DNA from: Elusimicrobiales bacterium | Lineage (GTDB): Bacteria; Elusimicrobiota; Elusimicrobia; Elusimicrobiales; UBA9959 | Reading direction: 5' to 3' | DNA: 64,000 nt | Assembly: GCA_028713125.1 (NCBI GenBank) | Contig: JAQTOU010000002.1 | Location: 610,505-674,504, forward strand | In this document: positions 1 through 20,360 of the stretch, piece after piece | Layout: every line of letters begins with the position of its first letter | Numbering within the stretch: position 1 is the first letter of the stretch | Made by a program: the position numbers and the translations under genes | Notes under the pieces: model-generated | Told to the model about the DNA's origin: nothing | What the model saw: only the letters and a program-made list of their open reading frames with translations | Databases searched by the model: none

Positions 1-1
1 A

Positions 2-1687
2 TCAGGCGTACAATGTTTTGAGGAACTTATAGAGGGTACGGTTGAATTGAATCCACAGCTCAGCCGAAGGTGATAATACAGACCCGCCGTGCGGCCCCGC
101 CCGCCCCGGGCGGGGCGGCACGTTTATCTGATTTCTGCATTTGTTTTTTTCCTTTAAAATTAAAAAATTAAATGGCGCAAAAAATTCTGCATTTTTAATT
201 TTTTTGTCGGAGATTTTGAGGTTCCTGACCAGTACCCCGAGTAGCCTTTTCTTGTCAGCGGCGTCCGGCTCTTTTTCCCCTATCTTACCGTCGGAGAGAA
301 ATGCGCGCACCTTCGCGAGATAGTCCGCGGACTTTTCGCGGTCTATCTCGCGCAGATCGTAGAGGGCCGCCAACTTTTTCAACTCTTCGCCTTTCTCCAT
401 CAATTCTTTATTTGAGGTCTCGAAAACTTCCTTAGACATGAGACCTTCTATGTAGGCGTCAGTCAATTTCGCCTGTTTAGCGAAATTGTCTGACAGGCTG
501 TGGTGAACCGCCTTTTTAGCCTCTTTTTCGTCTTCCGGTAGTTTTACGGGAGGCACGGTCATGTTCGGCCATCGGCTCGCTAAAGTGGTGCTTCTAAGGA
601 GCAATTCGAGCATCAATTCCAGTTGCGGCTCAATGTCTTCCGCCTTGATGCTCTTGTTGCGGCAGGTAGTATAGTTGTTGGTCCTTGAAGAGCAACGGTA
701 CCATTTCTTGGTGGCCTTGGTGCGGTGGTTGCAAACCGAGGACGCGCCCACGAACTTATGGTTGCAGGTACCGCAGAACAGTAAGCCGGACAGCAAGTAA
801 TCCCCCGGCCTGGCCTTACGGAGGGCTATGCGCTTTTCAGCGCGAAGCTTTTGCGCTTGCGCAAAGGCTTCCGCGCTGATTAGAGGGAGATGCCTGCCCT
901 GTGCGGTAATAACCTCGCTGGCGGGGTTTTTGACGTATTTATAGCCCTTTGGCGTTCGTTTGGACTTGTCGTAGTGGTGGGTGTTCCATACGATCTTGCC
1001 GGTATAGATGGGGTTTTTAAGGATATCGCCTATGGTCTTGGTTCCGAAATAGTTGCCCTTCCGGTTCCTGACGCCCTGCCTGGTAAGGGCCGCGCCTATG
1101 GCTAAAGTGCTTTTGCCTTCAAGGTACAGGGCATAGATGCGCCGCACAACCTCGGCCTCGCTCTCTACCACCTCCAGCAGCTTGGCTGGCTTGTTGTAGG
1201 CGTAGCCGTAAGGCGCATAGCGGGAACCTTGCCAGTTGCCCTGCTTAGCGCCCTTGAGCATTCCTGGGAATACTCGCTCCGCTATGCGGTTGCGCTCGAA
1301 CTCTGCGAAACTGCCAAGCTGCTGAAACATCAGCTTGCCGGCCGAGGTTGTGGTATCAAAGGGTTCCCCCGCCGACTTAAAGCCTACGCCGTAACTGCAA
1401 AGTTCGTCCACCAGAATTAGGAGGTCTTTCAGGTTGCGGCTGAAGCGGTCCAGTTTAGCCACCAGCACCAGCCCGAACTTGCCGCCTTTGGCGTCAGCCA
1501 TAAGTGCGGCAAGCGCGGGCCTTCTGGTTGTGGCACCGCTAATGCCATCATCAGAGTAGACCTTATAGCTTTCGTGGCCTTCGCGTTTTACAAAGGCTTC
1601 GAGGGTTTCCCTTTGCACTTCAAGGGAGTAACCTTCCCGTGCCTGGTCTTCTGTGGAGACTCGTAGGTATAGCGCTATTTTAGTCAT
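2..1687 (-). CDS. Large serine recombinase
   Basis: Site-specific DNA integrase of the large serine recombinase family, about 561 residues from the chosen start. The N-terminal resolvase domain has the catalytic serine in YLRVSTEDQ and the KLDRFSRN segment. A recombinase domain follows, then a zinc ribbon (LLFCGTC ... C ... C) and a charged, probably coiled C-terminal part. I chose ATG 1687 (protein MTKIALYLRVS) because it overlaps the stop of the upstream AbiV-like gene by 8 bp (ATGACTAA), which suggests translational coupling; an in-frame ATG at 1711 is also possible. The last 60 or so codons run through the 147-bp inverted repeat and the 12-bp putative crossover core, so the attachment site appears to lie inside the gene's 3' end. 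It is the only recombinase visible on the island. Confidence 0.93.
   Translation of the reverse strand: MTKIALYLRVSTEDQAREGYSLEVQRETLEAFVKREGHESYKVYSDDGISGATTRRPALAALMADAKGGKFGLVLVAKLDRFSRNLKDLLILVDELCSYGVGFKSAGEPFDTTTSAGKLMFQQLGSFAEFERNRIAERVFPGMLKGAKQGNWQGSRYAPYGYAYNKPAKLLEVVESEAEVVRRIYALYLEGKSTLAIGAALTRQGVRNRKGNYFGTKTIGDILKNPIYTGKIVWNTHHYDKSKRTPKGYKYVKNPASEVITAQGRHLPLISAEAFAQAQKLRAEKRIALRKARPGDYLLSGLLFCGTCNHKFVGASSVCNHRTKATKKWYRCSSRTNNYTTCRNKSIKAEDIEPQLELMLELLLRSTTLASRWPNMTVPPVKLPEDEKEAKKAVHHSLSDNFAKQAKLTDAYIEGLMSKEVFETSNKELMEKGEELKKLAALYDLREIDREKSADYLAKVRAFLSDGKIGEKEPDAADKKRLLGVLVRNLKISDKKIKNAEFFAPFNFLILKEKNKCRNQINVPPRPGRAGPHGGSVLSPSAELWIQFNRTLYKFLKTLYA
60..206 (+). repeat. 147-bp inverted repeat, left copy (inside recombinase 3' end)
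   Basis: Pairs in inverted orientation with 3557-3703 (positions sum to 3763), with one mismatch found by eye (195/3568). The outer 12 bp are the core TCAGCCGAAGGT. The copy encodes the C-terminal tail of the recombinase. Confidence 0.92.
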
Positions 1688-3182
1688 GTCTTTTTGCCTG
1701 TAAGTCCTCATCAGCTAGGTGTTGCATTTTTCTTAGGATGTAAAGGTCGGCCAGAATTTTAATGCAGCCACAGTCGCTTAATGTTATTGGTCTATCGAAT
1801 TTATTGGTAAGTTTATAATTCTCTCCTAGGGCAATGTATTCCTTGGTGGCTAACTGATAATCTTTATAGGCAGCAGTAAAAAACTTCTGAAAAGCAGTTT
1901 CAAGGGATTCTCCATCATTATAGTCATTGTAAAACTTCATCGCAGATACAAGGGCATTAAAGAAAGTGATAAATATTTCTGGTTCAAAACGTGTGTGAAT
2001 ATCATTTTTTCCGAAAAGTGAAATGCCCTGAACATAGGCATTGAGAAAGTGAGTGTTATCTTTTGGAAGGAATCGGAGACAGACAACAGCGTTGTTGAGA
2101 TCTGCTTTGGTAAGGGGATTGTTTCCCCAGTCAAGATATAGTTCTTTGGAAGGGGTAGATGAAACCTCCATTTTGTTCTCAAGATCTATTATCTTTTCAT
2201 AGAAGCGGGAAATATCTTTTGGTAGATACCACCAAAAATATCCCCTTGAGGCAATACTGAGCGAAACAGCATAAAGACGTGCTTGCCCCCATGCGAGGTA
2301 ATGTAGCGCATTTATCGGGACATTGCTCGGGAAAATAAGTGTGACGAATAAATCAGTGGCTTTTGTTTTGCTATCTCCACGAGTTAATTGAATTGTCTTG
2401 AATTTACTGTTCCACTCATTTAATACTTTCTGACTGATAGAGTGTGATGATGTGCGCAGTTTGTACCTTAATTGCCATTTATCTTTGATGTCCTTGTCAA
2501 AGCTTGTCTTGTTGAGTTCTTTCTGTATGAGTTCTTGTGCAGTTTTGTCGGCTTCGTCAAATTCTTCATGAAGCCAGTTAATCCACTTGTTATGATCCTT
2601 AAACTCATTGAGTTTTTCTATGGATTTAGCCCCAAAAATTAGAGGTTTCTTTCTTGGGTCTTGGGTAGCATCTGAAAACCATTTAAGGTTATCTCGGACT
2701 TTCGGAGTCGGCTCAGTGACTGTAGTCATCTCTGCCAACTTAAGTCTGGCTTCAGTAAGATTAATTAATTCTGTTGTCTCTTCCGGTGTTACAGCATGCT
2801 CGGGACTGTGTTCGCTATCGAGAGGGTTTACATATAATCCATCTAAGCGCTTCAAATGTATACGTTTGGATAATTCAATGTAAGATAAAATCTCTTCTTT
2901 TGAATGGATTTTGCTTTCTCCCGGGGAACCCCAGAGAGCCCAAAACAGTTTTTTTGAATGATCTTCAGCGGCCTGGCGTAAAATCGTCTCTGTGTTCTTT
3001 AGTTCCGGGGTATACCCAATGAGAACCATAACTGATTTTCCGATTTCCTCCAAAGATAGTGCCGCAAGATGATATGCGACATTATGGGAACCATTTTCTA
3101 AAAGAAGTTTACTGTTGCCAAGCAAATCAGACGCATGCGTTAGGCATTTAGCATGGAGCGCTTTGATTTCCTCAAAATTCAT
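1680..3182 (-). CDS. AbiV-like abortive infection protein
   Basis: The N-terminal ~100 residues match the AbiV (HEPN-like, all-helical) pattern: a helix with HAKCLTHASDLL, then HNVAYHLAALSLEEIGKSVM. AbiV was described as a phage-abortive-infection protein that blocks translation of phage messages in Lactococcus; that role is family knowledge. At 500 residues this protein is much longer than the AbiV domain, and I do not recognise the C-terminal ~350 residues. It starts one base after the stop of the HTH gene and overlaps the recombinase start, so all three probably share a transcript. It is AT-richer than the chromosomal genes to the right, which fits acquisition by transfer. Confidence 0.7.
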   Translation of the reverse strand: MNFEEIKALHAKCLTHASDLLGNSKLLLENGSHNVAYHLAALSLEEIGKSVMVLIGYTPELKNTETILRQAAEDHSKKLFWALWGSPGESKIHSKEEILSYIELSKRIHLKRLDGLYVNPLDSEHSPEHAVTPEETTELINLTEARLKLAEMTTVTEPTPKVRDNLKWFSDATQDPRKKPLIFGAKSIEKLNEFKDHNKWINWLHEEFDEADKTAQELIQKELNKTSFDKDIKDKWQLRYKLRTSSHSISQKVLNEWNSKFKTIQLTRGDSKTKATDLFVTLIFPSNVPINALHYLAWGQARLYAVSLSIASRGYFWWYLPKDISRFYEKIIDLENKMEVSSTPSKELYLDWGNNPLTKADLNNAVVCLRFLPKDNTHFLNAYVQGISLFGKNDIHTRFEPEIFITFFNALVSAMKFYNDYNDGESLETAFQKFFTAAYKDYQLATKEYIALGENYKLTNKFDRPITLSDCGCIKILADLYILRKMQHLADEDLQAKRHD

Positions 3183-3463: not shown

Positions 3464-3550
3464 CGGGGGCTACATATAATTAACAGGAAATCCCGCCAGG
3501 GCCGAGCGTATGCGAGGCCGGGGCGGGGTTTTAATCAGCCGGTGGCCCCC
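3464..3550 (+). repeat. 87-bp diverged direct repeat, copy A, terminator-like
   Basis: Shares order and motifs with 19815-19901: cgggggctacata, attaacag, a hairpin of the form cccgc..agg / cc..gggcggg followed by tttt, then aat..a.cc and gccccc. Both copies are 87 bp and in the same orientation, and each lies upstream of one leftward operon of the island. The hairpin plus T run would end rightward transcripts and, less strongly, leftward ones. The 3358-3463 stretch otherwise holds only the HTH promoter. Confidence 0.65.
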
Positions 3551-3556
3551 GGTCCC

Positions 3557-3703
3557 CAAAAAAATTATAAATGCAGAATTTTTTGCGCCATTTAATTTTT
3601 TAATTTTAAAGGAAAAAAACAAATGCAGAAATCAGATAAACGTGCCGCCCCGCCCGGGGCGGGCGGGGCCGCACGGCGGGTCTGTATTATCACCTTCGGC
3701 TGA
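3557..3703 (-). repeat. 147-bp inverted repeat, right copy
   Basis: Inverted partner of 60-206. Together the copies bracket the recombinase/AbiV/HTH module. Its last 12 bp (3692-3703) are also the first 12 bp of the 442-bp repeat, so the two repeat systems meet exactly in the shared core. Confidence 0.92.
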
Positions 3704-3761
3704 CCTCTGGGGCCGGCTGTACCGGACCATCTATCTGTACCTCGAAACAATGTATGGCTGA
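3557..3761 (+). pseudogene. 3' fragment of a second serine recombinase gene
   Basis: Reading rightward, this encodes the same tail as the recombinase at 2-1687 (NAEFFAPFNFLILKEKN ... VLSPSA), then a diverged but clearly related end, DLWGRLYRTIYLYLETMYG followed by a stop, in place of ELWIQFNRTLYKFLKTLYA. Many codon differences in that last part are synonymous or conservative, so it was once translated. The rest of the gene is absent. It is either the remnant of a related element's recombinase or a chimera made by recombination at the core. Confidence 0.75.
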
Positions 3762-4133
3762 TCTTACCCGCGAGAAGCCGCTCGCGGGCTCGGCACTACG
3801 CGCCTTCGCTCCGCTCGCTCGCCGCAGGGTGGCCGCTCGCCGGCCACTATGCGGCTCCCCTGCCGTCTTTTGAAGCGGTAGGCCGAGCTTATCCGCGAGA
3901 TGTCGTCGCAGGCGTGGCCACGCAGCGCGGCCCCGCACTGCTCCTTGCCGCTAGGAAGTGGGTTCGCAGGCTGCCGGCACATAGCCCTGCGCCGGCAGTT
4001 CTGCTCCCAAGGTAGGCTGCATCTTATTGTGCACCTCCTTGCGCGGCCGGGCAGCCCGGCCGCTCCCGGGCCGCAACAGCGGCCCGTACATCCCCGCATT
4101 TATTTTTTTCTTATTTTTAAATTATGGCCACCG
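3692..4133 (+). repeat. 442-bp inverted repeat, left copy, hairpin-rich
   Basis: Inverted partner of 19919-20360 (positions sum to 24052); I found no mismatch, and matching stops at both ends. It begins with the 12-bp core, carries the recombinase-like tail to 3761, then a GC-rich stretch with several perfect hairpins: 3767-3788 (8-bp stem), 3829-3847, 3971-3998 (8-bp stem), 4043-4063 and 4067-4086 (8-bp stem, AACA loop). It ends in an A/T-rich segment. I see no convincing gene beyond the tail; it may be a structured recombination arm or an RNA. Confidence 0.93.
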
Positions 4134-4187: not shown

Positions 4188-5084
4188 CTAAGCGTCAAAC
4201 TCAACTTGGGTTGTTCCTGTCTGTAGTATGTTCAGCCGACTGCTGTCATTGAATATCGTGAATTGGAACTCCTTCTTATCTAGTTCCTTGAGAATGGCGT
4301 GTTTCCTGGTATTGATTACATTTGAAATCAGCTCGTATATCAATAGGCAGCAATGATAATCTCGTTCAAAGTTAAAGGACTTTGTAATGGAAGTCAGTCT
4401 GTCTTTAGCCTGACTATCGGAGTCTGGCCGCTTTTGTTTTTTTAGATAGGTAATGCTGTCCTTGGAGTCATTTTGAATAATCATGCTCGGCTTGTTGTCG
4501 CGCCACATGGTGATGGAGAAAGGAGCGCTATAAAAGCGCAACGAATGTTTATAGGCATTGTATTCATCTCGATTGGAAAAATCTTTGGCAAATACAAGCA
4601 GTAATCGTTTGATATTGGCTAAATTTGTCTCCCACTCCGTATCAGTCATTCTGGAGTGGCAATGAAAGTAAAATACCCAGCGTAGAAGTGGGATGATTGT
4701 TTTGTCCCCGTTGATTGTAGCGCTTGTTGTTCGTGTGAAAATATCACTTTCAGAAAAGTGCGAAATTTTCTGGTAGTTATCTTTCCAATTGGAGATGGTA
4801 AGCGAAAGCCAAAGATTCCGGTTATCATGCTCGGCAATGGCAAAAGTTATTTCAAAAAGTGCCTCTATCATCTGAAAATATAAAAAATGCATTTCTGTCC
4901 TGATAACGCGCATGTAGTGCGCGTCGTCAGTATCGATGTCTTTTTTTAGGGTTCCCTTTAAAGACTCAAAGTTGTCATGGCAATTTTTAAAGAGTTGCAT
5001 TTTACAGAGCCAGTAATCGGGGTTGTACGCTCTGTAAAATTCCTGCTGTAGCCCGGCCAAGTCTCTGATTGAAATATTTTCCAT
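4188..5084 (-). CDS. Unknown protein, last gene of the defence operon
   Basis: A 298-residue, mostly helical, soluble protein that I do not recognise. It has no signal peptide or membrane segment. A conserved-looking patch is RDEYNAYKHSLRFY near residue 175, and the N-terminal half is rich in aromatic residues and histidines. It follows the STAND NTPase gene by about 20 bp and is the end of the leftward operon. The composition is AT-rich like the rest of the island. A HEPN-type RNase is conceivable from the fold-like helix content, but the usual R-x4-6-H motif is not clear, so I leave the function open. Confidence 0.75.
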   Translation of the reverse strand: MENISIRDLAGLQQEFYRAYNPDYWLCKMQLFKNCHDNFESLKGTLKKDIDTDDAHYMRVIRTEMHFLYFQMIEALFEITFAIAEHDNRNLWLSLTISNWKDNYQKISHFSESDIFTRTTSATINGDKTIIPLLRWVFYFHCHSRMTDTEWETNLANIKRLLLVFAKDFSNRDEYNAYKHSLRFYSAPFSITMWRDNKPSMIIQNDSKDSITYLKKQKRPDSDSQAKDRLTSITKSFNFERDYHCCLLIYELISNVINTRKHAILKELDKKEFQFTIFNDSSRLNILQTGTTQVEFDA

Positions 5085-5104
5085 GCAATATGGCTATACG
5101 CAAA

Positions 5105-8100
5105 CTATTTATAAGCCGGCAAGACCTGTACGGGGAACCCCCAAAGACTCCGGCTGTTTTTGCTTGCGGATTGACGCTCTTTCTTGCCCTTAATGAGACA
5201 GTCGGAATCATTGTCGCCTTTGCTTTCCAAAGACTGGAGATGCTCCTGGAGTTCTTTCGGAAGGAATTCATATTGAACCGAACAATAATACAATGCGAAC
5301 TCCCGGAATCTGCCGGTAAGCCGGCCAAGCAATTCTATTGGGTTATACAATATCGCAGCTGAATATTTAGAATCGGAATTTGCAAGGGCCCAAAGCCATG
5401 CGAGAATTATGGGCTCGCGCTTTTCCTCCTTAGGGGCAGATGGCACGAAATTCAATATCTCCCTGCTTCCTTCGCTATGTTCGTGAAAATAAGTTGCTAC
5501 TGCGATAGAAAGAATATCGCCTTTTCTAAAGCATAACTCTGCGGATTCCAAAATCCAAGTAGTTTTGTCTCGGGGTGTCTTATTCAACAATGCCGCCAAG
5601 ATATTGGCAAATAGCGCTGTGTCCGCTCGCGCCAGGACTTTTTCCAAAAAGCGTTTGTCGTGATCTCCATCCCCAAGTCCTTCATGGATAATCTCTAAAG
5701 GTACAGAAGAGTCGTGATCATCTGCCAATTTCGTATATATCGGCTCAAAAAATGCCGCATCTTTTTCATGGCAAGTAAGTGCAACAGCCCCGGCCATGGC
5801 TCTAATTTTACTGTTGGCATTGTTCATCTGTTTGGAAAGCAATTCTTTTAGAGCAGGGGCGATGTTTGTGATTTTAATGCCAATCGATAGAAGGATTTGT
5901 TTTTGTACCCCTGGGTTGTCAACACTCGACGGAGAAAGTAAAGCTTCTTGCCATAAAGGCGGAATAATCTCCCAGTGTGTAACTAGGCCAGCTCCCAAGC
6001 CGAATGAAAATCTAGCGGGTTCTTTTTTTGCTAAAGAATCTAGGCGGTCTTTGATGTCTTCTGGGATTCTATCAGCGGGAAGATGCCTGAAAAGATATTC
6101 CCATGGATTCCCAAAAATTAGTGAGCGCCTCCCTCCTAAGAGTGGGTCATCAAACAGAAGTCTTACTGCATCAAAACCTTCATTTTCTGGGATATTATAT
6201 TGTCCCATCGCTGACAGGAAATCGGTTAGTTGCGTCTTGGATTTGAGATATTCGAATAACTTGTTTTTAAAAGTCGGGGCGAGCCTATTATATCCTTGTA
6301 ATATTTTGGAGTAATGCAATAACGACAAGCCGTCGCTACCAAAAACTATTTTGCATAACGCCTCTTGCTCTGGGCCACTTTGCCTGCCGATCCCAAGGTT
6401 AAGTAAATATGTTGCTATGGAGGTAAGAGTGAAAGCGTGGTTTTTTGATTGGGGAACTTTCAGTAGGCTTATTGCAACAGAATTTAACCAGTCGGGTGAA
6501 GCGTCCGAAAGATATTCATCTATCGCTTCCGAAATACTTGGATGTATAGGCTCAAGATGGATCCCGTTAGGCTCTCCGCTCAGCATTAAGCCACCAACGG
6601 GCATTCTGGATATACATGAGCGGAATGTGCCTATACAAGATTGCAAGACTTCCTGCGGGTCTCCTTCCAATCCGAGTGCGGTGTGAATAATGCTGAAGGC
6701 TTCGTTAAAATTGTAGCGTCCTTCGCCTTGTGTCGAAAGAGTGGAGACCAATAGGAAGAAAAGCCGCTCGGAATCATTGCCTGGAGCAATCTTTTTGCGT
6801 GCACGTTCTTTGAAATTGCCTTTTGCCGCGTGTACAGCGGAGATTACATCTTTAATGTCCGCGGTTGCTGGGAGATCGGTGACTAGCATTTCAACTTCGT
6901 AAGGCATTTCTGTGTCGGCCGCAATATGTTTAGCGAACTCATCAGGGTTGGATAGGCCTCTTGCCTCACACAGCTTTTTCGCTAACCTGAAACGTTGGTC
7001 TAAGGAGTAGGAAGAGCCTTTGATTTTTATAACTTCAAATTGGGGTATGGATTGCTGCTTTGCGGTTGCTTCATCAACCCATTTATCAAATAGTCCTTCG
7101 CGGCTAGTGATAAGCAAACGACATCCAGCACGGGACGTAGAAGCCGTAATGCTGGAGCAAAATTCGTTTAGGTCAAAAAAATTATAAGTGTGCAGTGACG
7201 CCTCGAACTCCTTATCAGTCTTGCCGAAAGGATCCTCAATGTAAACAGTGGTATCCGGTCGCAGGTTCTTGGCAATAAATTCTTTGGAATCAATGGGCGG
7301 ATTCTTTGGCTCTATCCCAAGGGTGCGCGTTAAGGCGTCTATCCTCTGGTTGAAATCAGACTTTGGGGTCTCGTCCGGGACGGGCCCATCTGACGGTAAT
7401 AAATCGTATGGTGATATCCAGCGGACGCCGCGGCCTCGGTTGTGTTCTCTCCACAACAATTGAGCGGCGATAAAGGTTTTGCCTACCCCAGGCGGGCCAA
7501 TTATAATTTTGACTGGGGTCTCTGGTTTAAAATGCTCCAATGATTTAAAATCCTGTGGCTCAACAAAACGACCATCAGGTGAAATGCTGGGCCAATTGTC
7601 CAAATACTTACTTACATATTCTTGGTGGCCAGCTTTTTCAAAGAATGTCTCCCATGCTCCAGTCCCAAGGCTTGGTGCCTTGAGAGGGGTTTTAAATATC
7701 TTGTACAACCCTGCTGCACGGGACGGCGGCAGTATTAAAATGTCATCTCGATGATATCCGTCGAAATGATTCTGAATATATTTGTACTTTTGTTTATTTA
7801 CTTCACTCGGTGTGCAGGCGAAGATAATTACGATAAGTGATGCTTTCCTAGAAGAAGCATCTGTAATCTGAGCTTTAAGCTTTTGCGCAAAATCCTTTGC
7901 CTTCAAATCATTGTCAGATTTTATCTGGAAGCCAATTCGTTCTTTGGTGGCTATGCCTGTAACTATAACATCAAGCCCGTCGTCTTGGGGGTGGTCAATG
8001 TCTTCAACTGAAACCTTCTCTGGGAAAACCGCTGGATTAGATTCAAGCCATTCTTGTAATTGTGTGTTGTAGCCATTTTTCCCGCGTCCGGTAACGCCAG

Positions 8101-8182
8101 ATAAAATGCTGGTCGCTTCGGCCTCTGTCGTAGGCCGTTGTTCCCATAGTAATTCTTTTATAACCCCAATTAAAGCTGACAT
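5105..8182 (-). CDS. Nuclease-STAND NTPase (Avs/nSTAND-like)
   Basis: About 1025 residues. The N-terminal ~170 residues look like a restriction-endonuclease fold: GLDV (Asp ~71) followed by GFQIKSD (Gln ~86, Lys ~88), a D...Q-x-K variant of PD-(D/E)XK. A STAND-type ATPase follows, with P-loop GPPGVGKT (~229-236), Walker B TVYIEDPFG and a sensor-like LLITSRE. The C-terminal half is helical and HEAT/TPR-like. This is the layout of antiviral STAND proteins, in which repeats sense a phage protein and the ATPase triggers the nuclease; here that is inference from architecture. I chose ATG 8182 over an in-frame ATG at 8227, because 8182 starts one base after the upstream stop. Confidence 0.8.
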   Translation of the reverse strand: MSALIGVIKELLWEQRPTTEAEATSILSGVTGRGKNGYNTQLQEWLESNPAVFPEKVSVEDIDHPQDDGLDVIVTGIATKERIGFQIKSDNDLKAKDFAQKLKAQITDASSRKASLIVIIFACTPSEVNKQKYKYIQNHFDGYHRDDILILPPSRAAGLYKIFKTPLKAPSLGTGAWETFFEKAGHQEYVSKYLDNWPSISPDGRFVEPQDFKSLEHFKPETPVKIIIGPPGVGKTFIAAQLLWREHNRGRGVRWISPYDLLPSDGPVPDETPKSDFNQRIDALTRTLGIEPKNPPIDSKEFIAKNLRPDTTVYIEDPFGKTDKEFEASLHTYNFFDLNEFCSSITASTSRAGCRLLITSREGLFDKWVDEATAKQQSIPQFEVIKIKGSSYSLDQRFRLAKKLCEARGLSNPDEFAKHIAADTEMPYEVEMLVTDLPATADIKDVISAVHAAKGNFKERARKKIAPGNDSERLFFLLVSTLSTQGEGRYNFNEAFSIIHTALGLEGDPQEVLQSCIGTFRSCISRMPVGGLMLSGEPNGIHLEPIHPSISEAIDEYLSDASPDWLNSVAISLLKVPQSKNHAFTLTSIATYLLNLGIGRQSGPEQEALCKIVFGSDGLSLLHYSKILQGYNRLAPTFKNKLFEYLKSKTQLTDFLSAMGQYNIPENEGFDAVRLLFDDPLLGGRRSLIFGNPWEYLFRHLPADRIPEDIKDRLDSLAKKEPARFSFGLGAGLVTHWEIIPPLWQEALLSPSSVDNPGVQKQILLSIGIKITNIAPALKELLSKQMNNANSKIRAMAGAVALTCHEKDAAFFEPIYTKLADDHDSSVPLEIIHEGLGDGDHDKRFLEKVLARADTALFANILAALLNKTPRDKTTWILESAELCFRKGDILSIAVATYFHEHSEGSREILNFVPSAPKEEKREPIILAWLWALANSDSKYSAAILYNPIELLGRLTGRFREFALYYCSVQYEFLPKELQEHLQSLESKGDNDSDCLIKGKKERQSASKNSRSLWGFPVQVLPAYK

Positions 8183-8183
8183 C

Positions 8184-8798
8184 TTAATTGCCTTCAGATT
8201 TTTCCTTGGTGGTCCAGAAGCCTTCAAAAATGTAGCCGATCTTAAATCCGAGTGCCGGCTTCAGCGTCCCGGCCTTCCCCCCGCCCACATTGTCCAGGTC
8301 GAGGTCGATAAGCCTGTAGAAAATGTCAAAGGTGAAGCCTGTGGGCGTATCAGCGAACTCATTGGTCGTGTAGAGCATCCCGGCGGAAACAATGGGCGCG
8401 GCATAAAGTGTCGTGTCAGACAGCCCAAGGTCGGCATAAGCCTGGGCGGTAAAGCGCAACGGTTTCCCCTGTACCTTCGGTGTCATGTACTCCATACCGA
8501 GCAAAAGATCAAACAAATAGAACGTGTCTTTGCCGGTGTGCGGATTATCAACCTTAATGCTCTGGAACTGCAATCCGCCAGTCTTAGAGATAGTCTCATG
8601 CCCTACGGCGCGGAACCCGAAGCCCCAGGGTTTTACAGTCTCATTGCCGCCGCCTGAGATGTCCAGGCTCTGACCCGTAGGCATGATCATGTAATACTCA
8701 TTAGCTGAAACCCACTTGTAGACGGGCTTGCTCTCCGCCGCATTGGCGTATACGACCGAGCCCAAAACAAGGAATGCAAAGGCGATAATCTTTTTCAT
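8184..8798 (-). CDS. Exported protein, probable outer-membrane barrel
   Basis: A 204-residue protein with a clear signal peptide (MKKIIAFAFLVLGSVVYANA, cleavage near residue 20) and alternating aromatic/hydrophobic strands ending in KPALGFKIGYIFEGFW, typical of a small beta-barrel or other envelope beta protein. I do not recognise a family. It sits inside the defence operon, 2 bp after the preceding gene and 1 bp before the STAND gene, which is odd company for an envelope protein. It is either unrelated cargo or an envelope sensor or effector for its neighbours. Confidence 0.75.
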   Translation of the reverse strand: MKKIIAFAFLVLGSVVYANAAESKPVYKWVSANEYYMIMPTGQSLDISGGGNETVKPWGFGFRAVGHETISKTGGLQFQSIKVDNPHTGKDTFYLFDLLLGMEYMTPKVQGKPLRFTAQAYADLGLSDTTLYAAPIVSAGMLYTTNEFADTPTGFTFDIFYRLIDLDLDNVGGGKAGTLKPALGFKIGYIFEGFWTTKEKSEGN

Positions 8799-8800
8799 GG

Positions 8801-9196
8801 TTACTCAGTATAGACTATTTTTAGTTTGGCGCCGGTCGCTGTTGCCTTGTACGGCCTGGGACCGGTATTGATTACGTTTGCAAAGGCCTTTGCCGTGGCT
8901 GCGGCGGTCTGCTTGGCCTTGAGAGGCAGCATTATATTCCAACCGGCAACATGGTTAATTGTGCCGTCTGGGCGCATGAAGCGGAAAATAGAAAGCCATA
9001 TCCCAATAGTTCCGTTTATGCTCGCGTCGTTTCGGCCTGTGGCTATTCCGGAGACTTCGGCTATGCCCGCCTCGCCCCCGACGGTGACTCTCTCAACAAG
9101 GACTTTAATGGTCTGTGTCTTATCGTAAGAGGCGGCTTCTAACTTTGCCCCTTTAGCGAGTTCAACTTCTGGATTGTAATTCCCTTTCTTCCCCAT
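8801..9196 (-). CDS. Unknown 131-residue protein
   Basis: I recognise no family. It has a lysine-rich start (MGKKGNYNPEVELAKGAK), several short beta-type stretches and no signal peptide or membrane span. A strong Shine-Dalgarno (GAGGGGG) sits 6 bases before the ATG. It lies 25 bp after the small nuclease-like gene and 2 bp before the exported protein gene. Its GC content is higher than that of the methyltransferase end of the operon, so it may have a different origin. Confidence 0.7.
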   Translation of the reverse strand: MGKKGNYNPEVELAKGAKLEAASYDKTQTIKVLVERVTVGGEAGIAEVSGIATGRNDASINGTIGIWLSIFRFMRPDGTINHVAGWNIMLPLKAKQTAAATAKAFANVINTGPRPYKATATGAKLKIVYTE

Positions 9197-9221
9197 GATG
9201 CCCCCTCTGAATGTCTGAACG

Positions 9222-9719
9222 CTATCTGGCTATGCGCTTAATGCGATCTTTCTCTTGAACCTGTGTCTGAAGTTTTTTAAGACGGATGAAAGAGATAACC
9301 TTCTCTCGCATAAATGTTTCTTTCTGAGTGTTCAACTCATTCCAGACGCGTTCAGAGTCCCCGTCGTAGATGTGTTCCCAGGTGCCATCCTGATTAAGCT
9401 TGAGTACTAGAAGTAAGTCGCCTGGGCGAGGTCTTTTTACGGCTACTTCTTTGCCTTGTGTGGTTTTAACCTGTACCTCTCTGCCATTTATGCGCCCGTC
9501 TACCGCGGGATGCCCAACATTGGAAAAAAGTTCTATTCCGTAATCTATCGCTGCGATTGCTTCCCCTAAACTTCCAACCATATGCCCATCCGGGGTAAAC
9601 TTACGCCCGGGGAACAAGGCTGTCAATTCAGCGACTATGGAGTATATCTGACGAATCTTTTCTCCCAGGTTATCTCGGTTGAGAGTATGGGGGTTATTGG
9701 TGAACTTGTTATCGGGCAT
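9222..9719 (-). CDS. DUF6998-like, possible PD-(D/E)XK nuclease
   Basis: About 165 residues. The core VGSLGEAIAA, then DGRINGREVQVKTT, has the D ... E-x-K spacing of restriction-type nucleases, with a preceding conserved glutamate. The pattern resembles the DUF6998 proteins I associate with type I restriction loci; that assignment is from memory. I chose ATG 9719 because it overlaps the hsdR stop by 11 bp; a TTG at 9740 is an alternative. It may act with the R-M complex or independently as a nuclease. Confidence 0.65.
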   Translation of the reverse strand: MPDNKFTNNPHTLNRDNLGEKIRQIYSIVAELTALFPGRKFTPDGHMVGSLGEAIAAIDYGIELFSNVGHPAVDGRINGREVQVKTTQGKEVAVKRPRPGDLLLVLKLNQDGTWEHIYDGDSERVWNELNTQKETFMREKVISFIRLKKLQTQVQEKDRIKRIAR

Positions 9720-12051
9720 ACAGATATTTCTGGAAATCAATAAACGTGTTGCGGATAGCCTGTACGTCGCCTAACTGGGCGGTGGCATCGTTTATTGCAT
9801 GGTACTTAAGAGTAAGAAGGTCAGGGAGTTTCTCCTGGTCCAACTCTTCTACGCCGGTCTCTATGTATTTGGCCAGAACGAAATCCAGGAATTCCTGCTG
9901 CCGGGAGCTGAGGCCGGTGTGGATTTGCGCCTTCGCCTTGGCTACGCGCTCCTCGCGGGTGAGGGGTTTGATATCGTAGGCGATATACTCCAGCACGTCG
10001 AAGAGGTCGCTCTTCTCGGCATCCACAAGTTTCTGCAGCGTGGAGAGGTCTTCCCGGGTATAACCAGACGCGGCCAGTTTATCCAGCATGGCCTTGCGTG
10101 TAATCGGGTTGGACCAGACTTTGCGCAGCTCCTCTTCGCTTTTGAAGAACTCCGGCAACGCGCCGAACAGGCCCATTACAAATTCTTCGGCTGAAATGGG
10201 TTTCCCCTCAGCGCTGTAGAAGGAAGTCAGTATAGTGACCTGGATCTGCCGCTCTTTGCCGGCGCCCAGCTTAACTTTTACCTTCTTTACGCAGACACAT
10301 GGGCGTTTTCCGCATTTGGGGCAAGGGCATTGGCAGGGGCGCTGGCCGCAGACAGGGCAGGGCTTGCCTGGTCTGCTTTCGCAGACGCAGGGCTTTTCAC
10401 CGCAGCGTTTGCAGACGTCAGCCTGCGGCTCGCCGTCCCATTCGGTGTCTGAGAAATGGTGGTAGGCGTCCACGAAGTCGTAGATGGTGAAATATTCTTT
10501 GCCGTCGAATAGACGGGTGCCGCGGCCTATGATCTGTTTAAACTCTATCATCGAGTTGATAGGGCGCATCAGCACGATGTTGCGCACGTTGCGGGCGTCC
10601 ACGCCGGTGGAAAGTTTCTGCGAGGTGGTGAGGATGGTGGGGATGGACTTCTCGTTGTCCTGGAATTCGCGGAGATACTGCTCGCCCAGCTCGCCGTCGT
10701 TGGCGGTAACGCGTACGCAGTAATTGGGCTCGGTGCTGGTCTTGTACTGGTTTACTAGGTCACGCACCAGCGCGGCGTGCACTTGGGTGGCGCAGAAGAC
10801 CAGCGTCTTTTCCTTCTGGTTTATCTCGCCCAGGAAAGTCTTAACGCGTGTAGCCTCGCGTTCTTGTATTTCAATAATGCGATTAAACTCGTTCTCAGTG
10901 TAAATCTTGCCAGCCTCTATTTCACCCTCTATCACATGATCGTCCGATGCAAAGCTATACTGGTCCAGCGTAGTGCCCACACGCTTTAAGCGGAACGGAG
11001 TGAGGAAGCCGTCGTTGATGCCTTCTTTGAGGGAATATATATAGACCGGCTCACCGAAGTATTCGTAGGTGTCGCGGTTGTCCTCGCGACGGGGCGTGGC
11101 GGTGAGACCAAGCTGCACAGCAGGTGAGAAATATTCCATGATGCCGCGCCAATTGCTTTCGTCGTTAGCACCGCCGCGGTGGCACTCGTCTATGATGATG
11201 AAGTCAAAGTAGTCTTTGGGATAATCGCCGAAGTACGGGGTGTTGTCCGGGCCGCTCATGAAGGTCTGGAAGATGGTGAAGAAAACGCTGCCATTGGTGG
11301 GCACGGCGCCTTTCTTGCGTATCTCTTCGGGGCTTATTCGCACTAGGGCGTCTTCGGGGAAGGCGGAGAAAGCGTTGAAGGCCTGGTCGGCCAGGATATT
11401 GCGGTCGGCCAAGAACAGAATGCGGGGCCGGCGGGTGCCATCCCGCTTTAGGTTCCAGCGTGTCTGGAAAAGTTTCCAGGCTATCTGGAAGGCAATAAAG
11501 GTTTTACCGGTGCCGGTGGCTAGCGTTAGGAGGATGCGCTGCTTGCTGTCCGCAATGGCGGCCATTACGTTGTTTATGGCTATTTCCTGGTAGTAGCGGA
11601 CTACTTTAGTGCCGCCGAGGTCTTCCAACGGGATATTGTTGAATAGGTCGCGCCAGTTGTTCTGCGTTGAGAACAGCTTGGTCCAAAGCTGTTCAGGCGT
11701 GGGGAAGGCATCCACAACCCCTTCTTTGCCGGTCTGCATGTCTATCTGGTAGATTTCTTTACCGTTAGAAGCGAAGGTGAGGCCAAGGCGCATTTTCTCC
11801 GCGTAGTTCTTAGCCTGGGCCACGCCTTCGGAGACTTCCAGTTCGTCACTTTTGGCCTCGATGGCGGCCAGCTTGCGGCCCTTATAGGAGAGCACATAGT
11901 CCGCGATGAGCGGCTTAGCGCGTTTACCGCCCACCTGTATTTTGCCGTCAGTGATATGATATTCCCGGTGAACTTTGGAGCCGTCCACTCCCCAGCCGCT
12001 GGCTAGCAACTTGGGGTCAATCAGTTCCGCCCTGGTTTCGGCTTCATTCAT
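9709..12051 (-). CDS. hsdR: Type I restriction enzyme R subunit with Cys-rich insert
   Basis: The 780-residue motor and nuclease subunit of a type I restriction system, EcoEI-type. The N-terminal nuclease domain has ADYVLSYKGRKLAAIEAKS (D ... E-x-K). The SF2 helicase motor follows with ATGTGKT, IIDECHRGG and LTATPRR, then QIIGRGTRL (motif VI). The C-terminal EcoEI_R_C domain ends near IRNTFIDFQKYLYAR. Residues 547-587 are an unusual insert: three tandem C-x2-C-x4-C-x-C units (12 cysteines), likely zinc-binding. The start overlaps the M-S gene stop by 4 bp. Together with the M-S protein it should cut unmethylated DNA. Confidence 0.93.
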   Translation of the reverse strand: MNEAETRAELIDPKLLASGWGVDGSKVHREYHITDGKIQVGGKRAKPLIADYVLSYKGRKLAAIEAKSDELEVSEGVAQAKNYAEKMRLGLTFASNGKEIYQIDMQTGKEGVVDAFPTPEQLWTKLFSTQNNWRDLFNNIPLEDLGGTKVVRYYQEIAINNVMAAIADSKQRILLTLATGTGKTFIAFQIAWKLFQTRWNLKRDGTRRPRILFLADRNILADQAFNAFSAFPEDALVRISPEEIRKKGAVPTNGSVFFTIFQTFMSGPDNTPYFGDYPKDYFDFIIIDECHRGGANDESNWRGIMEYFSPAVQLGLTATPRREDNRDTYEYFGEPVYIYSLKEGINDGFLTPFRLKRVGTTLDQYSFASDDHVIEGEIEAGKIYTENEFNRIIEIQEREATRVKTFLGEINQKEKTLVFCATQVHAALVRDLVNQYKTSTEPNYCVRVTANDGELGEQYLREFQDNEKSIPTILTTSQKLSTGVDARNVRNIVLMRPINSMIEFKQIIGRGTRLFDGKEYFTIYDFVDAYHHFSDTEWDGEPQADVCKRCGEKPCVCESRPGKPCPVCGQRPCQCPCPKCGKRPCVCVKKVKVKLGAGKERQIQVTILTSFYSAEGKPISAEEFVMGLFGALPEFFKSEEELRKVWSNPITRKAMLDKLAASGYTREDLSTLQKLVDAEKSDLFDVLEYIAYDIKPLTREERVAKAKAQIHTGLSSRQQEFLDFVLAKYIETGVEELDQEKLPDLLTLKYHAINDATAQLGDVQAIRNTFIDFQKYLYAR

Positions 12052-14126
12052 GATTTCTTATCAAATACTACTTTCAATATTGATTTTTCAAGTTCCACTA
12101 AGTCGGTCAATTTACTTTGATAGAGGGCCTCTATTGACGCGACCTCATTAGCGAAAAGCTTTAGTTTTTCTGAAATATCTTTCTGTTGCGGCAAGGATTC
12201 AGGATACCTAACAATGATGTCCTTTAGTTTTTTCTTGTTTAAAGTTTTCCCTTTAATCTTGACATCGCCTTTGGTTGCACCATGCCAATCAAAGAAACTT
12301 AAATAATAGAATAGGAAATCTTTTGAGATTTCTTTTTCGTTTTTAATTTCTAGAGCCGCAATTGCCTCATTTGTAAATAAATCACTGCCAGCGAAAGCAA
12401 GCCGCCCCAATGTGAGCTTAAAACTTACAAGCAAAGTTCCTTTGGGAACAACGCGCGATGTTTTTGCGGCTATATCTGAGATACACTCCTTGCTGTCATA
12501 GATAATATTGTCTTTTGCGTTTAACAAATCCGCTATAGATAGCCACACGTTCTTCGTTCGTTTTTCCACATCCCAGAACTTTTTATTATTTCTCGCAGGA
12601 GTCCGGCCAATTTCGATATTGCAAAGCTCATCTAATGTTTTTGTTTTCCACTTTACTTCTGGGGCATCAAACAGATCCTTAAACCCACAAATCCGCGCTA
12701 ATGCTTGTTTGGTTTTATGATCAACCTTTTCCATGCCCTCTAAAATAGCCGCCGGGGCTCGTATAGGCGTGGGTTTAGGGGCATTAGGGTTACCGCCACT
12801 CAGATCAAAAGTTTCAAGGCTAATATTTGCGACGTCAGTAACCCAAGAATTTATTGAGGACTGTTTTGTTTTTTGGAAAAGGCAAAACTCCTCAAAGTCT
12901 TTTTCGATTAGTGGCGATTTCTTTCCAAGATTTCTGCCTAAGTTTAACTGATAGTGCCATATCTTCCTAGTTTTAGTCCCTTTTTCAAAAAAAAGCACAA
13001 CGGTCTGACCACCTGCCATAAAAACTCCACGAGGCAATTCCAGAACTGTGTGCAAATTGCAGCTTTCCAAAAGCAATTTTCGTAAACTTATCGACGCGCT
13101 GTCTGTGTTGGATAAAAATGTGTTTTTAATGACTACCCCGGCCTTGCCACCGGCCTTGAGCAACTTAATGAAATGCTGCAGAAACAGGGAAGCCGTCTCG
13201 CCTGTCTTTATGGGGAAATTCTGCTGCACCTCGGCCCGCTCTTTGCCACCGAACGGTGGATTGGCCAGCACCACATCGTAGCGGTCCCGCTCCTGAATGT
13301 CGGACATGTTTTCGGTCAGCGTGTTGGTGTGCACAATATTGGGCGCTTCCACCCCGTGCAGGATCATATTCATAGTGCCTATGATATAGGCCAGACCCTT
13401 CTTCTCTTTGCCGTAGAAAGTCCGCTTCTGCAGCGTCTCAGCATCCTTGGTGGTAAGGTTCTTGCTGGCCTTTAAATATTCAAAGGCCTCGCACAGGAAG
13501 CCCGCGGAGCCCACTGCGCCATCATAGATCTTCTCACCAATAGCCGGGGCCACCACTTTTACGATGGTCTTTATAAGCGGCCTGGGCGTATAATACTCGC
13601 CGCCATTGCGGCCGGCATTGCCCATGTTCTGGATCTTGTCTTCGTATAGGGCGGACATCTCATGCTTTTCGGTATGGGAGCGGAAGCGCAGGCCGTCCAC
13701 CAGATTGATAACCTCGCGCATATTGTAGCCGCTCTGGATCTTGTTTTTCAGTTCACTGAAAATCTCGCCTATCTTGTACTCTATGGTGTCAGGGCTTTCT
13801 GCCTCGGTCTTGAACTTCTTGAGGTAAGGGACCAGCTTGTGGTCAACAAAATCCTTCAGGTCGTCTCCGGTTAGGGCCTTGTGGTGGTCTATCTTGCCGT
13901 CCTTGTCTTTGGGCGCGGCCCAGGTTTCCCACTTAAACTCGCGGCCGATTATGGCAGAGTATTGCTTGCCGGCCAGCTCAGCGACGGTTTTTTTGTCTTT
14001 CTCTAGGTCTTCTAAATATTTCAGGAATAGTAGCCAAGAGGTTTGCTCAACGTAATCCAGCTCACTGGAACAGCCGGCGTCCTTGTGGAGAATATCGTCT
14101 ATGTTTTTAAAAACTTGTTCGAACAT
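12048..14126 (-). CDS. hsdM: Type I methyltransferase-specificity (M-S) fusion
   Basis: A 692-residue fusion of an N6-adenine methyltransferase with a specificity domain. Residues 1-130 are the HsdM N-terminal helical domain (LDYVEQTSWLLFLKYLEDLEK). Next is the N6_Mtase domain with GSAGFLCEAFEY and the catalytic ANPPFGG. From about residue 490 there is one target-recognition domain (TLDELCNIEIGRTPARNN) followed by one helical spacer that ends the protein. Ordinary HsdS has two TRDs; with one, two copies would have to pair and the target would be a palindromic split site. A Shine-Dalgarno GAGGG lies 5 bases before the ATG. Confidence 0.92.
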   Translation of the reverse strand: MFEQVFKNIDDILHKDAGCSSELDYVEQTSWLLFLKYLEDLEKDKKTVAELAGKQYSAIIGREFKWETWAAPKDKDGKIDHHKALTGDDLKDFVDHKLVPYLKKFKTEAESPDTIEYKIGEIFSELKNKIQSGYNMREVINLVDGLRFRSHTEKHEMSALYEDKIQNMGNAGRNGGEYYTPRPLIKTIVKVVAPAIGEKIYDGAVGSAGFLCEAFEYLKASKNLTTKDAETLQKRTFYGKEKKGLAYIIGTMNMILHGVEAPNIVHTNTLTENMSDIQERDRYDVVLANPPFGGKERAEVQQNFPIKTGETASLFLQHFIKLLKAGGKAGVVIKNTFLSNTDSASISLRKLLLESCNLHTVLELPRGVFMAGGQTVVLFFEKGTKTRKIWHYQLNLGRNLGKKSPLIEKDFEEFCLFQKTKQSSINSWVTDVANISLETFDLSGGNPNAPKPTPIRAPAAILEGMEKVDHKTKQALARICGFKDLFDAPEVKWKTKTLDELCNIEIGRTPARNNKKFWDVEKRTKNVWLSIADLLNAKDNIIYDSKECISDIAAKTSRVVPKGTLLVSFKLTLGRLAFAGSDLFTNEAIAALEIKNEKEISKDFLFYYLSFFDWHGATKGDVKIKGKTLNKKKLKDIIVRYPESLPQQKDISEKLKLFANEVASIEALYQSKLTDLVELEKSILKVVFDKKS

Positions 14127-14155
14127 TGGGCCCTCAGAGTCTGGAAATAAGAAAT

Positions 14156-14869
14156 CTAGTGATGATAGAAATGCTCTTTCAGTAAAGATTTGTTGCCTTT
14201 AATTGAAGCACAGTGCCCAAGAAATGGTCTGAGGAAGGTGGCTTCATTTTCCTCAAGACGATGCTGCCAGTAAGTATCCTCAAACAGTTTGTGAGCGTCT
14301 TCGGGGATGAACTCTGTGAATATCATGTAGACCAGCATGAAAATAGAAATTGGATAAAAGCATATCCGAGGATTCTCCATCCAAGGCCTGATGGCATTCT
14401 CGTATTTCGAGTCATCGATCCCCGCAGCCTTCATCTGCCTGCTCAGCTCCCCGCCGTATTGTAGATGGAGGTAGGGCTTTTTTGAAATCTCCTTCCCAGT
14501 TTTATTGCGTCCCGAGTCGTAGTCGAAGTGGAACTTGCGAATAACATCACCGGAAGAATCTGCAATAGCCATGTACAGCGATGCATCGCAACAAAAAAAA
14601 TCTTTCTTTTCCCTTTTAGTGTTTATTATCTCTCCGAGAAATATCCTGTATGGTTTGTTGGATATCGATATTTCGAGGAGCCCCTCAAAAACTATAAGTG
14701 GGCCATCTTTGAATTTCTTTAAATCTATTCCTTCTAGTCGTCTGTGTGCATCTGATGCTGCTCGTGCAAAATTGTAGTGGTTGCCTTGTAGAAAAGGACT
14801 ATCTCCTAGCAGCTTTAAGGCTGCAGATTCTGTCTTGAGAACATCTGCTGGTGACGGGTAATGGATCAT
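14156..14869 (-). CDS. Unknown protein downstream of the receiver gene
   Basis: A 237-residue soluble protein that I do not recognise. Visible features are a beta-rich middle (GPLIVFEGLLEISIS, YRIFLGEII, KDFFCCDASLYMAIAD), a YLHLQYGGELSRQM segment and a hydrophobic helix (ICFYPISIFMLVYMIFTEFI) that is probably buried rather than transmembrane. It lies 16 bp after the receiver-domain gene and 29 bp before the M-S gene, so it may belong with the methyltransferase/GHKL/receiver genes and could be their effector; that is inference. Confidence 0.75.
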   Translation of the reverse strand: MIHYPSPADVLKTESAALKLLGDSPFLQGNHYNFARAASDAHRRLEGIDLKKFKDGPLIVFEGLLEISISNKPYRIFLGEIINTKREKKDFFCCDASLYMAIADSSGDVIRKFHFDYDSGRNKTGKEISKKPYLHLQYGGELSRQMKAAGIDDSKYENAIRPWMENPRICFYPISIFMLVYMIFTEFIPEDAHKLFEDTYWQHRLEENEATFLRPFLGHCASIKGNKSLLKEHFYHH

Positions 14870-14885
14870 AAACGTAAAAATGTTG

Positions 14886-15872
14886 TTAGCGCTGAATGCG
14901 AATGTCTTCGAAGTAAATCTTCTTTACTATATAGGGGTGTTCTTTTGAACATTTTATGTGAAGTGGAATAAGTTTTGCGGATTTGCTCGCGTCGCTATAT
15001 CCGAGGACTTCCGGATATCTTTCATTGCAATAGCCGCATTTTACGTGATCTGCGGAGAGAACATTGACAATGTTATGGCCCGCTTCCCAGGGGAAAGCCG
15101 TCGGGGCATTCTTTGCGTTTTTGAAAATGATGCTTTTAACAGCGCCACGCCACCAACGCTTGTCTTCAGGTGTGCAGAAAATCCCTTTATATAATGCTGT
15201 GGTGAAAAGAGCTTCAAACTTTTTAAAGCTCTCGTGTTTTACCCCCATAACATTAGCAACCCATTTATCATCGAGTAGCGGCCCGGGGTAAGCAAATAAT
15301 TCTTTTTTGAACCTATACACGTCGCGCATCGATAGCTTTATGCCGTTTTCGGGGCGAGGGCATATGCGGAGGAGTATCTCCTTCTCCTCTTCTGCAGGGG
15401 CGAACATGTTAACCAGTGTGTTAGTGCTAGATAAAAGGCTCTTCTTTGTGGTTTTAAAGGCAATTGCCGCACTAGCGAGGGTAGAGGAATGATTGGAAAA
15501 GTGTTCATCAAGGAACAATTCCTCATATGCCTGAATTGCATTTGAATTTATACTTTTAAGCTTATCGTCGGCAGTAATCCCAAATATAGGAATATTCGGC
15601 GCTTTATCTGAAACAATGTTTGCCAGTGTGGATCCACGCCTTTCAGTCTGCGTTGTCCCGCTGAGTACATGGTCTATAACAACCAGGTCGTATTTTGTGA
15701 AGTCTTGCTTGTTTGTTTCCTCAATGGGATCAAGATTCGAAAGGTCAACGAACTTTGCAGCGACAGAGTATTCTTTCCCTTTGCAGTCGGTGAAGACGTA
15801 GACATTTAATGCGTCTACGAACCGCTTCCTCTTAGGACTATCATCCAACCAGATAAACTTTAGGGTCTTCAT
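14886..15872 (-). CDS. Receiver-domain protein with zinc-ribbon-like tail
   Basis: A 328-residue response regulator-like protein. The N-terminal receiver domain has the acidic pair Asp10-Asp11 (FIWLDDS), the candidate phospho-acceptor Asp67 (LVVIDHVL) and Thr100 (GITADD). The middle is unknown and helical, with RFKKELFAYPGPLLDDKW and KRWWRGAVKSIIF. The C-terminus has Cys279-x2-Cys282 and His305-x2-Cys308, a likely zinc site. There is no recognisable DNA-binding output domain. The start overlaps the kinase stop by 4 bp (ATGA), so the receiver almost certainly pairs with the GHKL protein upstream. Confidence 0.8.
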   Translation of the reverse strand: MKTLKFIWLDDSPKRKRFVDALNVYVFTDCKGKEYSVAAKFVDLSNLDPIEETNKQDFTKYDLVVIDHVLSGTTQTERRGSTLANIVSDKAPNIPIFGITADDKLKSINSNAIQAYEELFLDEHFSNHSSTLASAAIAFKTTKKSLLSSTNTLVNMFAPAEEEKEILLRICPRPENGIKLSMRDVYRFKKELFAYPGPLLDDKWVANVMGVKHESFKKFEALFTTALYKGIFCTPEDKRWWRGAVKSIIFKNAKNAPTAFPWEAGHNIVNVLSADHVKCGYCNERYPEVLGYSDASKSAKLIPLHIKCSKEHPYIVKKIYFEDIRIQR

Positions 15873-18121: not shown

Positions 18122-18132
18122 GTTTCCTCTTT

Positions 18133-19814: not shown

Positions 19815-19901
19815 CGGGGGCTACATAACATTAACAGAAAAGCCCGCTAGGGCGAGCGAACAGCGAGCCTGGGCGGGTTTTTAATAAACCAAGGTGCCCC
19901 C
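19815..19901 (+). repeat. 87-bp diverged direct repeat, copy B, terminator-like
   Basis: Matches copy A (3464-3550) in length, order and orientation: cgggggctacata, attaacag, a GC hairpin with gcgggttttt, then taataaacc and gccccc. It adjoins the far end of the 442-bp repeat, whereas copy A adjoins the 147-bp repeat. Confidence 0.65.
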
Positions 19902-19918: not shown

Positions 19919-20360
19919 CGGTGGCCATAATTTAAAAATAAGAAAAAAATAAATGCGGGGATGTACGGGCCGCTGTTGCGGCCCGGGAGCGGCCGGGCTG
20001 CCCGGCCGCGCAAGGAGGTGCACAATAAGATGCAGCCTACCTTGGGAGCAGAACTGCCGGCGCAGGGCTATGTGCCGGCAGCCTGCGAACCCACTTCCTA
20101 GCGGCAAGGAGCAGTGCGGGGCCGCGCTGCGTGGCCACGCCTGCGACGACATCTCGCGGATAAGCTCGGCCTACCGCTTCAAAAGACGGCAGGGGAGCCG
20201 CATAGTGGCCGGCGAGCGGCCACCCTGCGGCGAGCGAGCGGAGCGAAGGCGCGTAGTGCCGAGCCCGCGAGCGGCTTCTCGCGGGTAAGATCAGCCATAC
20301 ATTGTTTCGAGGTACAGATAGATGGTCCGGTACAGCCGGCCCCAGAGGTCAGCCGAAGGT
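19919..20360 (-). repeat. 442-bp inverted repeat, right copy; island end
   Basis: Inverted partner of 3692-4133. Its last 12 bp (20349-20360) are the core TCAGCCGAAGGT, and chromosomal sequence begins at 20361. It brackets the methyltransferase-to-STAND operon with its partner. Confidence 0.93.

Follow-up and report, generated by a model that had tools for sequence, protein, structure and literature searches.

The window spans 64,000 nucleotides of an Elusimicrobiota genome of 3.48 Mb (contig C15, 610505-674504). At its left end lies a gene for a large serine recombinase (LSR) of 569 aa (LSR-B; positions 2-1711, minus strand; Pfam Resolvase, Recombinase and Zn_ribbon_recom), and an AbiV-like gene (1680-3182, minus strand; Pfam HEPN_AbiV, E 1.4e-17) is found between LSR-B and the first arm of a long inverted repeat. 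Ahead of this arm is a hairpin read by eye as terminator-like (3464-3549, plus strand), which recurs on the same strand at 19815-19901 (C15 613968-614053 and 630319-630405). The two arms enclose a cargo operon (4188-19473, minus strand), for which Pfam identified an nSTAND3 protein, a DUF6998 protein, type I R and M/S proteins, a HATPase protein and an N6-methylase-like protein, among others.

A repeat search of the window placed the arms at 3686-4133 and 19919-20366 (448 nt each, 15,785 nt apart), and BLAST gave 99.55% identity over 448 nt. When the bases were read directly, only two mismatches were found, and because both sit within the outermost six bases (ATTATC vs ATCATT), the remaining 442 bp are perfect, with 3692-4133 being the reverse complement of 19919-20360. 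A sequence-only reading of this DNA had described a perfect 442-bp inverted repeat with copies about 16 kb apart around a defence operon; the repeat proved to be exact and far above chance, and the operon between its arms carries type I restriction-modification and other defence-type genes. A second inverted pair, at 1-206 and 3557-3762 (90% identity), overlaps the left arm and was absent from that reading.

Inward from the attachment (att) core, each arm carries in the same order a C-terminal tail of the LSR, a chain of hairpins (hereafter Y) and an AT-rich end; the tail is in frame with the LSR solely where attP is unbroken. In the left arm (plus strand), the internal attP is intact, and its att core region ACCTTCGGCTGAC forms the outer edge of the perfect repeat at 3692-3704 (placed by comparison with the outer junctions and given as a region, not as exact crossover bases). 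It is followed by the hidden tail DLWGRLYRTIYLYLETMYG with its stop codon (3702-3761, read in the LSR frame), by Y (3762-4089, of which 3868-4089 was used in the alignment, folding and covariation analyses) and by the AT-rich inner end (4090-4133). The right arm (19919-20360, minus strand) mirrors this, with Y at 19963-20290, the tail at 20291-20350 and the att core at about 20348-20360. Sequence comparison showed that the segment just outside the left arm (3557-3691, plus strand) is an inverted copy of a module, X, which holds the end of the LSR frame and a replacement start for the gene miaB (MQKS...VCIITFG from 3623). The other X arm, together with the tail, lies at the 3' end of LSR-B (1-206, minus strand; att core at about 61-71), where the last ~20 codons (2-61) come from the right arm of a neighbouring element, A.

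Sister elements and their junctions with miaB

The element in the window, B, and element A to its left are inserted in tandem within the same gene, which we take to be miaB on account of its MiaB motif. Element A has its own recombinase (LSR-A, C15 594319-595974, 551 aa in its inserted form) and inverted arms (596271-596889 and 610732-610114, 96% identical), and a type I restriction-modification system is among its cargo. Contig C5 carries a third element; its LSR shares 26% identity with LSR-B and ends over a tRNA-Asp gene, and its arms lie at 22406-22768 and 45012-44649 (95% identical). These three are all the PF07508 recombinases of the genome, and all have the same layout, which from the sequence runs as target, X, LSR, an inverted block of X, attP, tail and Y, then cargo, a further Y and the displaced part of the target.

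The body of miaB (ITFGCQMNEADSENIAAAF...) lies directly left of LSR-A, while comparison of the flanks located a displaced host start to the right of element B (20361-20381, minus strand; GTG, VNKVHIITFG). The outer edge of the repeat is thus an att junction, with one copy leading into the element-borne replacement start and the other into the displaced host start. The codons for 'IIT' differ between the two (ATT ATC ACC vs ATC ATT ACC) exactly where the perfect repeat ends. Since the X arm supplies its own start (MQKS...VCIITFG), the gene is restored. Each insertion rewrites the MiaB-like N-terminus, with a longer element-coded start in place of VNKVH (L017:3115-4407 for miaB; window 3623-3700). 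When the joined flanks were searched in the 59 genomes that share the window's GTDB family, a single uninterrupted match (one match from query base 180 or lower to base 425 or higher) was obtained in eight (G036, G028, G049, G035, G055, G057, G021 and G003). The displaced start was found apart from the body in nine of the 59 (G000, G042, G048, G052, G038, G054, G026, G049 and G030), G049 being counted in both groups; in G048 a single contig holds both parts, separated by about 62 kb. The hybrid junctions, in a gene that relatives carry whole, and the domain set of the recombinase are those of an LSR element. In two relatives (G036:C40:56861-56934 and G028:C28:42645-42712) a whole miaB is accompanied, at a distance of up to about 1 kb, by a further, partial miaB start, perhaps a scar left by an element of a different kind.

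Two other accounts of the repeat were considered. The assembler might have copied one arm, and both the 100% identity across 442 bp and the breaks of related assemblies at this place would fit such an artefact; however, the two arms have different, fitting flanks, and G048, G027 and others show the same layout with arms that differ from each other, making this account highly improbable. Perfect identity is not the rule among the sister elements, whose arms are less alike (96% over 619 bp and 95% over 364 bp), and consensus smoothing during assembly may have contributed to the 100% identity in the window. The 16-kb unit could also be a transposon with long terminal inverted repeats, given that the gene set ends in two perfect inverted repeats. 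We give this scarcely any credence, as no Pfam transposase domain was found among the 11 cargo proteins (5 of which had no Pfam match of any kind), the outer edges are unlike, one leading into X and the LSR and the other into host miaB, and the same core is present at single junctions inside arrays.

The conserved arm core was used as a search pattern. It matched 75 stretches in genome_contigs, with titles naming Elusimicrobia, Elusimicrobiales or Elusimicrobiota in 61 cases and 'bacterium' alone in 14, and gave no match in viral_contigs. A DNA search found the arm in 44 of the 59 genomes of the family. Across 340 genomes of the phylum the core was present in 45, namely these 44 and 1 of the 281 outside the family, where the match spans 26 bases and is chance-like. 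The sequence-only reading had proposed looking for the same sequence at the ends of other islands, and this is where it was found. We read the 442-bp repeat as the att-side module of an LSR-driven integrative element in an Elusimicrobiota genome.

An inverted copy of the LSR 3' end across a recombinase clade

Stretches around PF07508 matches in the 59 genomes were surveyed (94 by table). LSR frames were present in 90 of 92 loci, with our own three counted, giving 92 frames in total; 77 were classed as relatives of our own LSRs (phmmer E < 1e-100) and 15 as others. An inverted copy of the recombinase's own 3' end was found in 44 of the 51 relatives with at least 300 bp of upstream sequence and in 6 of the 26 with less than 300 bp. 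It was seen in none of the 15 unrelated LSRs from the same genomes, and in none of the 22 LSRs with at least 300 bp upstream, out of 24 taken from further Elusimicrobiota genomes. The seven relatives without a copy comprised two at a contig edge (L229 and L231), two with less than 400 bp upstream (L175 and L236), one short frame (L233) and two unexplained cases (L206 and L242). One of the latter, L242 (G020:C1), belongs to the clade and sits at tRNA-Glu; its flanks are long on either side, and it has neither inverted copy nor Y. Clade members target miaB as well as genes of tRNA-Glu, tRNA-Asp, tRNA-Ser and tRNA-His, and on these counts the inverted copy is a rule of the clade. Many contigs end just upstream of the LSR, as would be expected from an inverted repeat at that place, and one kind of break in these assemblies is accounted for by the layout.

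A conserved integrase tail inside the inverted copy

In the internal copy, the LSR frame crosses the att core into a short tail and stops just before Y. Tails were read in 49 LSRs with an inverted copy; 19 readings left the contig and 30 could be followed to a stop. A conserved tail of one of two kinds was encoded in 25 of these 30 (tRNA-type, xFxxxVxxYFAQHPExTL; miaB-type, [DE]LWxRxxRTlYxFLKTLYx), and none in the other five (L184, L207, L228, L237 and L239). The inserted LSRs end instead in residues coded by the target, such as RRDSNPRSSP over tRNA-Asp and LSRSDAR in miaB, while LSRs standing in tandem (LSR-B and the second LSR of G048) receive their tail from the neighbour's arm. The sequence-only reading had seen no convincing gene in the repeat, which needs correcting for the first ~60 bp, where the conserved integrase tail is encoded. 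On its reverse strand, Y also offers a candidate peptide gene (GGAGGT followed by ATG, MQPTLG...); this was rejected, as its start codon is missing in some copies and its frame shifts by one base between copies.

For 37 tRNA-type tails, pN/pS was 0.46 in the LSR frame vs 1.08 and 0.99 in the other frames, and for 13 miaB-type tails 0.45 vs 0.73 and 1.60. Because these values, like the codon-position counts, were obtained with tails chosen by their protein pattern, a set chosen by position only was added. Here the ten tRNA-type tails gave 0.62 vs 1.08 and 0.92, weaker than in the pattern-chosen set, and the two miaB-type entries, a very small number, gave 0.88 vs 0.78 and 1.25. AlphaFold2 modelled the LSR-B tail as a helix, with very low confidence in that part.

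With 25 of 30 copies encoding a tail, it follows that attP lies within the integrase gene, that integration severs the tail and that an inverted spare 3' end is kept. A circle or a tandem neighbour would thus yield an LSR with the conserved 18-19-residue tail, and insertion into miaB or a tRNA gene would exchange it for target-coded residues. As the tail is short and model confidence is very low there, any effect of its loss on activity is a guess.

Y is a chain of covarying hairpins

The hairpins noted in the sequence-only reading are real: the region 3868-4089 folded with z-scores of -4.2 (plus strand) and -4.5 (minus strand), and none of 200 shuffles reached as low. Among 61 distinct copies of Y, most have a common conserved start followed by hairpins of exchanged sequence. 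One copy (L033:1501-1737) carries an extra block of ~46 bp in the centre of GTGGCCAC, as if the hairpin blocks themselves move.

Covariation was tested on 39 distinct aligned copies against 500 shuffles, using a 32-pair structure picked after the alignment had been seen. Its pairs were formed in 95.1% of cells, against 89.1 (sd 0.5) in the shuffles, 61 cells were changed on both sides (shuffled 15.6), and the covariation score was 0.173 (shuffled 0.077); none of the 500 shuffles reached any of these values. In a control with slid partners, at most 54.5% of cells were paired. Further pair types were no more numerous than in the shuffles (71 of 500), and a small helix reached only 70.5% pairing. 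The helix at columns 104-110/163-170 showed changes on both sides in five of its seven pairs. With the raw alignment as input, the covariation term of RNAalifold was weak (-1.5). A regular-expression test of single helices gave 66 paired cells for helix d vs a shuffled mean of 57 (1 of 2,000 shuffles at least as high), 67 of 2,000 for helix f, and nothing above shuffles for helix c; since the expressions took the wrong arms in several rows, we relied on the 39-copy alignment. The compensatory changes which the sequence-only reading had wanted looked for among homologues are thus present above both shuffles and slid controls.

Y may be a DNA device whose hairpins or cruciforms serve integrase binding, replication or transfer, a reading that fits the swapping of hairpin blocks between copies and the fact that both strands fold well. 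On the strand running from X to Y, however, G.U cells outnumber A.C cells (30 vs 9, at seven pair positions each, with the excess coming mainly from two of the positions), and we regard the DNA device as rather unlikely, with an RNA preferred. The earlier choice between a structured RNA and a recombination arm finds some support on both counts, and at the same place, the arm from the att junction and from the recurrence at other island ends, a putative RNA from the compensatory changes in 39 copies.

Y gave no match above the gathering score in Rfam 15, and by our searches appears confined to one GTDB family. It co-occurs with the recombinase: of the 36 genomes with PF07508, 35 carry Y, as do 9 of the 23 that lack PF07508, in counts that ignore relatedness. 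Y is put forward as a candidate RNA family with testable stems.

Concerted evolution of the arms, defence arrays and a possible flipped form

X copies of 90 bp or more were compared in 42 elements, and 69 of the 84 were closest to their own mate in the same element, indicating that the two copies undergo recombination or mutual conversion, or are frequently renewed as a pair. Of the causes of identity offered earlier (recent duplication, gene conversion or constraint), it is such concerted evolution within elements that was seen. The inverted sites flank the LSR segment, as the layout and the inverted-copy survey show and as an invertible switch requires. A flipped form was met in at most one contig, L203 (G053), in which the LSR is joined to a Y with an internal-type far flank and the cargo faces it, as in a flipped element. 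This contig begins at the LSR, the second X copy was not found, and a wrong assembly path is as likely an explanation as a flipped element.

The 106 cargo proteins from three genomes matched 479 PADLOC models (E 1e-5), and 54 flanking proteins of our own genome matched 15; these are counts of models, not proteins, and a single protein may match many. Control proteins outside the islands (window 20400-64000 and the flanks in the same genome) also matched a few models, e.g., MzaA and mad3. Most cargo genes point toward the target and have Y on the 5' side. Cassettes with Y and without an LSR occur in some arrays; one stretch (G048:C51:83300-91300), a defence array made of units, holds two- and four-gene cassettes of this kind between two LSR elements. 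We considered integron-like cassettes and rejected them, the recombinase being an LSR instead. The cargos of A and B have in common a gene pair of about 205 and 131-134 aa (window 8184-9196; L017:6943-7961), the ~205-aa protein being 90% identical between them. It was considered as an excision factor and set aside, having a secreted-like start and no Pfam match.

Unaided, serine integrases are known to recombine only attP with attB, and the formation of tandem arrays is therefore not explained by the enzyme alone. Plain tandem accretion might account for what is seen. The inverted copy would then be a functionless by-product, its identity kept by passive gene conversion, and the overlap of tail and attP would follow from att sites adjoining integrase genes. 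Tandem arrays and LSR-less cassettes are indeed common, arms of the sister elements are merely 95-96% identical, and no certain flipped form was found. Against this stand the presence of the inverted copy in 44 of 51 relatives, at four kinds of tRNA target and miaB and at a constant place, and a tail within it that is still readable and conserved. On balance, accretion without a function for the copy seems to us fairly improbable.

Discussion

Taken together, the findings suggest that this bacterial integrase shortens its own gene upon insertion yet retains a spare. The explanation we favour, and hold to be somewhat better than an even bet as a whole, with the steps on the spare tail and on Y as RNA included, is that each arm is a copy of the P-side attachment module belonging to an LSR element with defence genes. 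Its groundwork is what can be read from the genomes, namely the layout, the target, the in-frame tail, the concerted evolution and the covariation. From there we infer the effect of the tail on activity, the flipping and an RNA function of Y. Insertion parts the tail and Y from the LSR, and loss of the tail would lower or alter integrase activity, by which we propose that the insertion is stabilised. Across the LSR gene, the element keeps a full inverted set of X, attP, tail and Y. Recombination of one X arm with the other could then flip the LSR segment and fuse the LSR to the spare tail, giving a full-length enzyme without outside help. Y, soon after the stop codon of the tail and 5' of each cargo set, would act as single-stranded RNA, either as the 3' UTR of the mRNA that encodes the full-length LSR, as a leader of the cargo transcript, or as both.

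A wider claim is offered tentatively, since we think it may well fall. The serine integrases of these elements may form a bacterial family of enzymes that truncate themselves and have the cure built in: the tail cut would lock the island in, the inverted spare 3' end with attP would allow the LSR to flip and the full enzyme to be regained, and a new covarying RNA family after the tail would be a mark of the tailed state, circular or flipped, and stand ahead of the cargo sets.

The elements resemble known LSR integrative elements, including defence islands, in having an LSR with Resolvase, Recombinase and zinc-ribbon domains, att junctions in host genes and defence cargo; the PLE is a defence island type among these. 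They differ in having attP within the LSR frame, an inverted second attP with a spare LSR 3' end, and Y. CIME-type accretion also produces tandem units at a single att site, some of them without an integrase, as here; unlike it, the present units have a serine recombinase, and Y is found in every unit. Our layout suggests how defence genes gather in one little-studied bacterial family.

Our literature search found no bacterial serine-type equivalent, which is weak evidence because subscription literature lay mostly outside its scope. Integration-dependent immunity in mycobacteriophage BPs likewise places attP in a reading frame, that of the repressor, and insertion cuts 33 residues (PMC4557955). 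In both systems insertion alters the C-terminus of a life-cycle regulator; here it is the integrase that is cut and there the repressor, and no spare copy is mentioned for BPs (PMC4557955). A further likeness is to the archaeal suicidal integrases of the SSV, pTN3 and pT26-2 types, in which attP lies in the integrase gene and insertion breaks the gene (PMC8371274). The same source presents them as tyrosine recombinases split through the enzyme, as exclusively archaeal, and discusses as a problem how such elements leave again (PMC8371274). Compared with that account, attP lies inside the integrase frame here too (25 of 30 readable copies), but the enzyme is a bacterial serine recombinase, a short tail is lost and the spare is held by the element. 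The present elements would thus be a bacterial serine-type case, in dozens of copies and at several target genes, in which the missing piece of the integrase is carried by the element itself.
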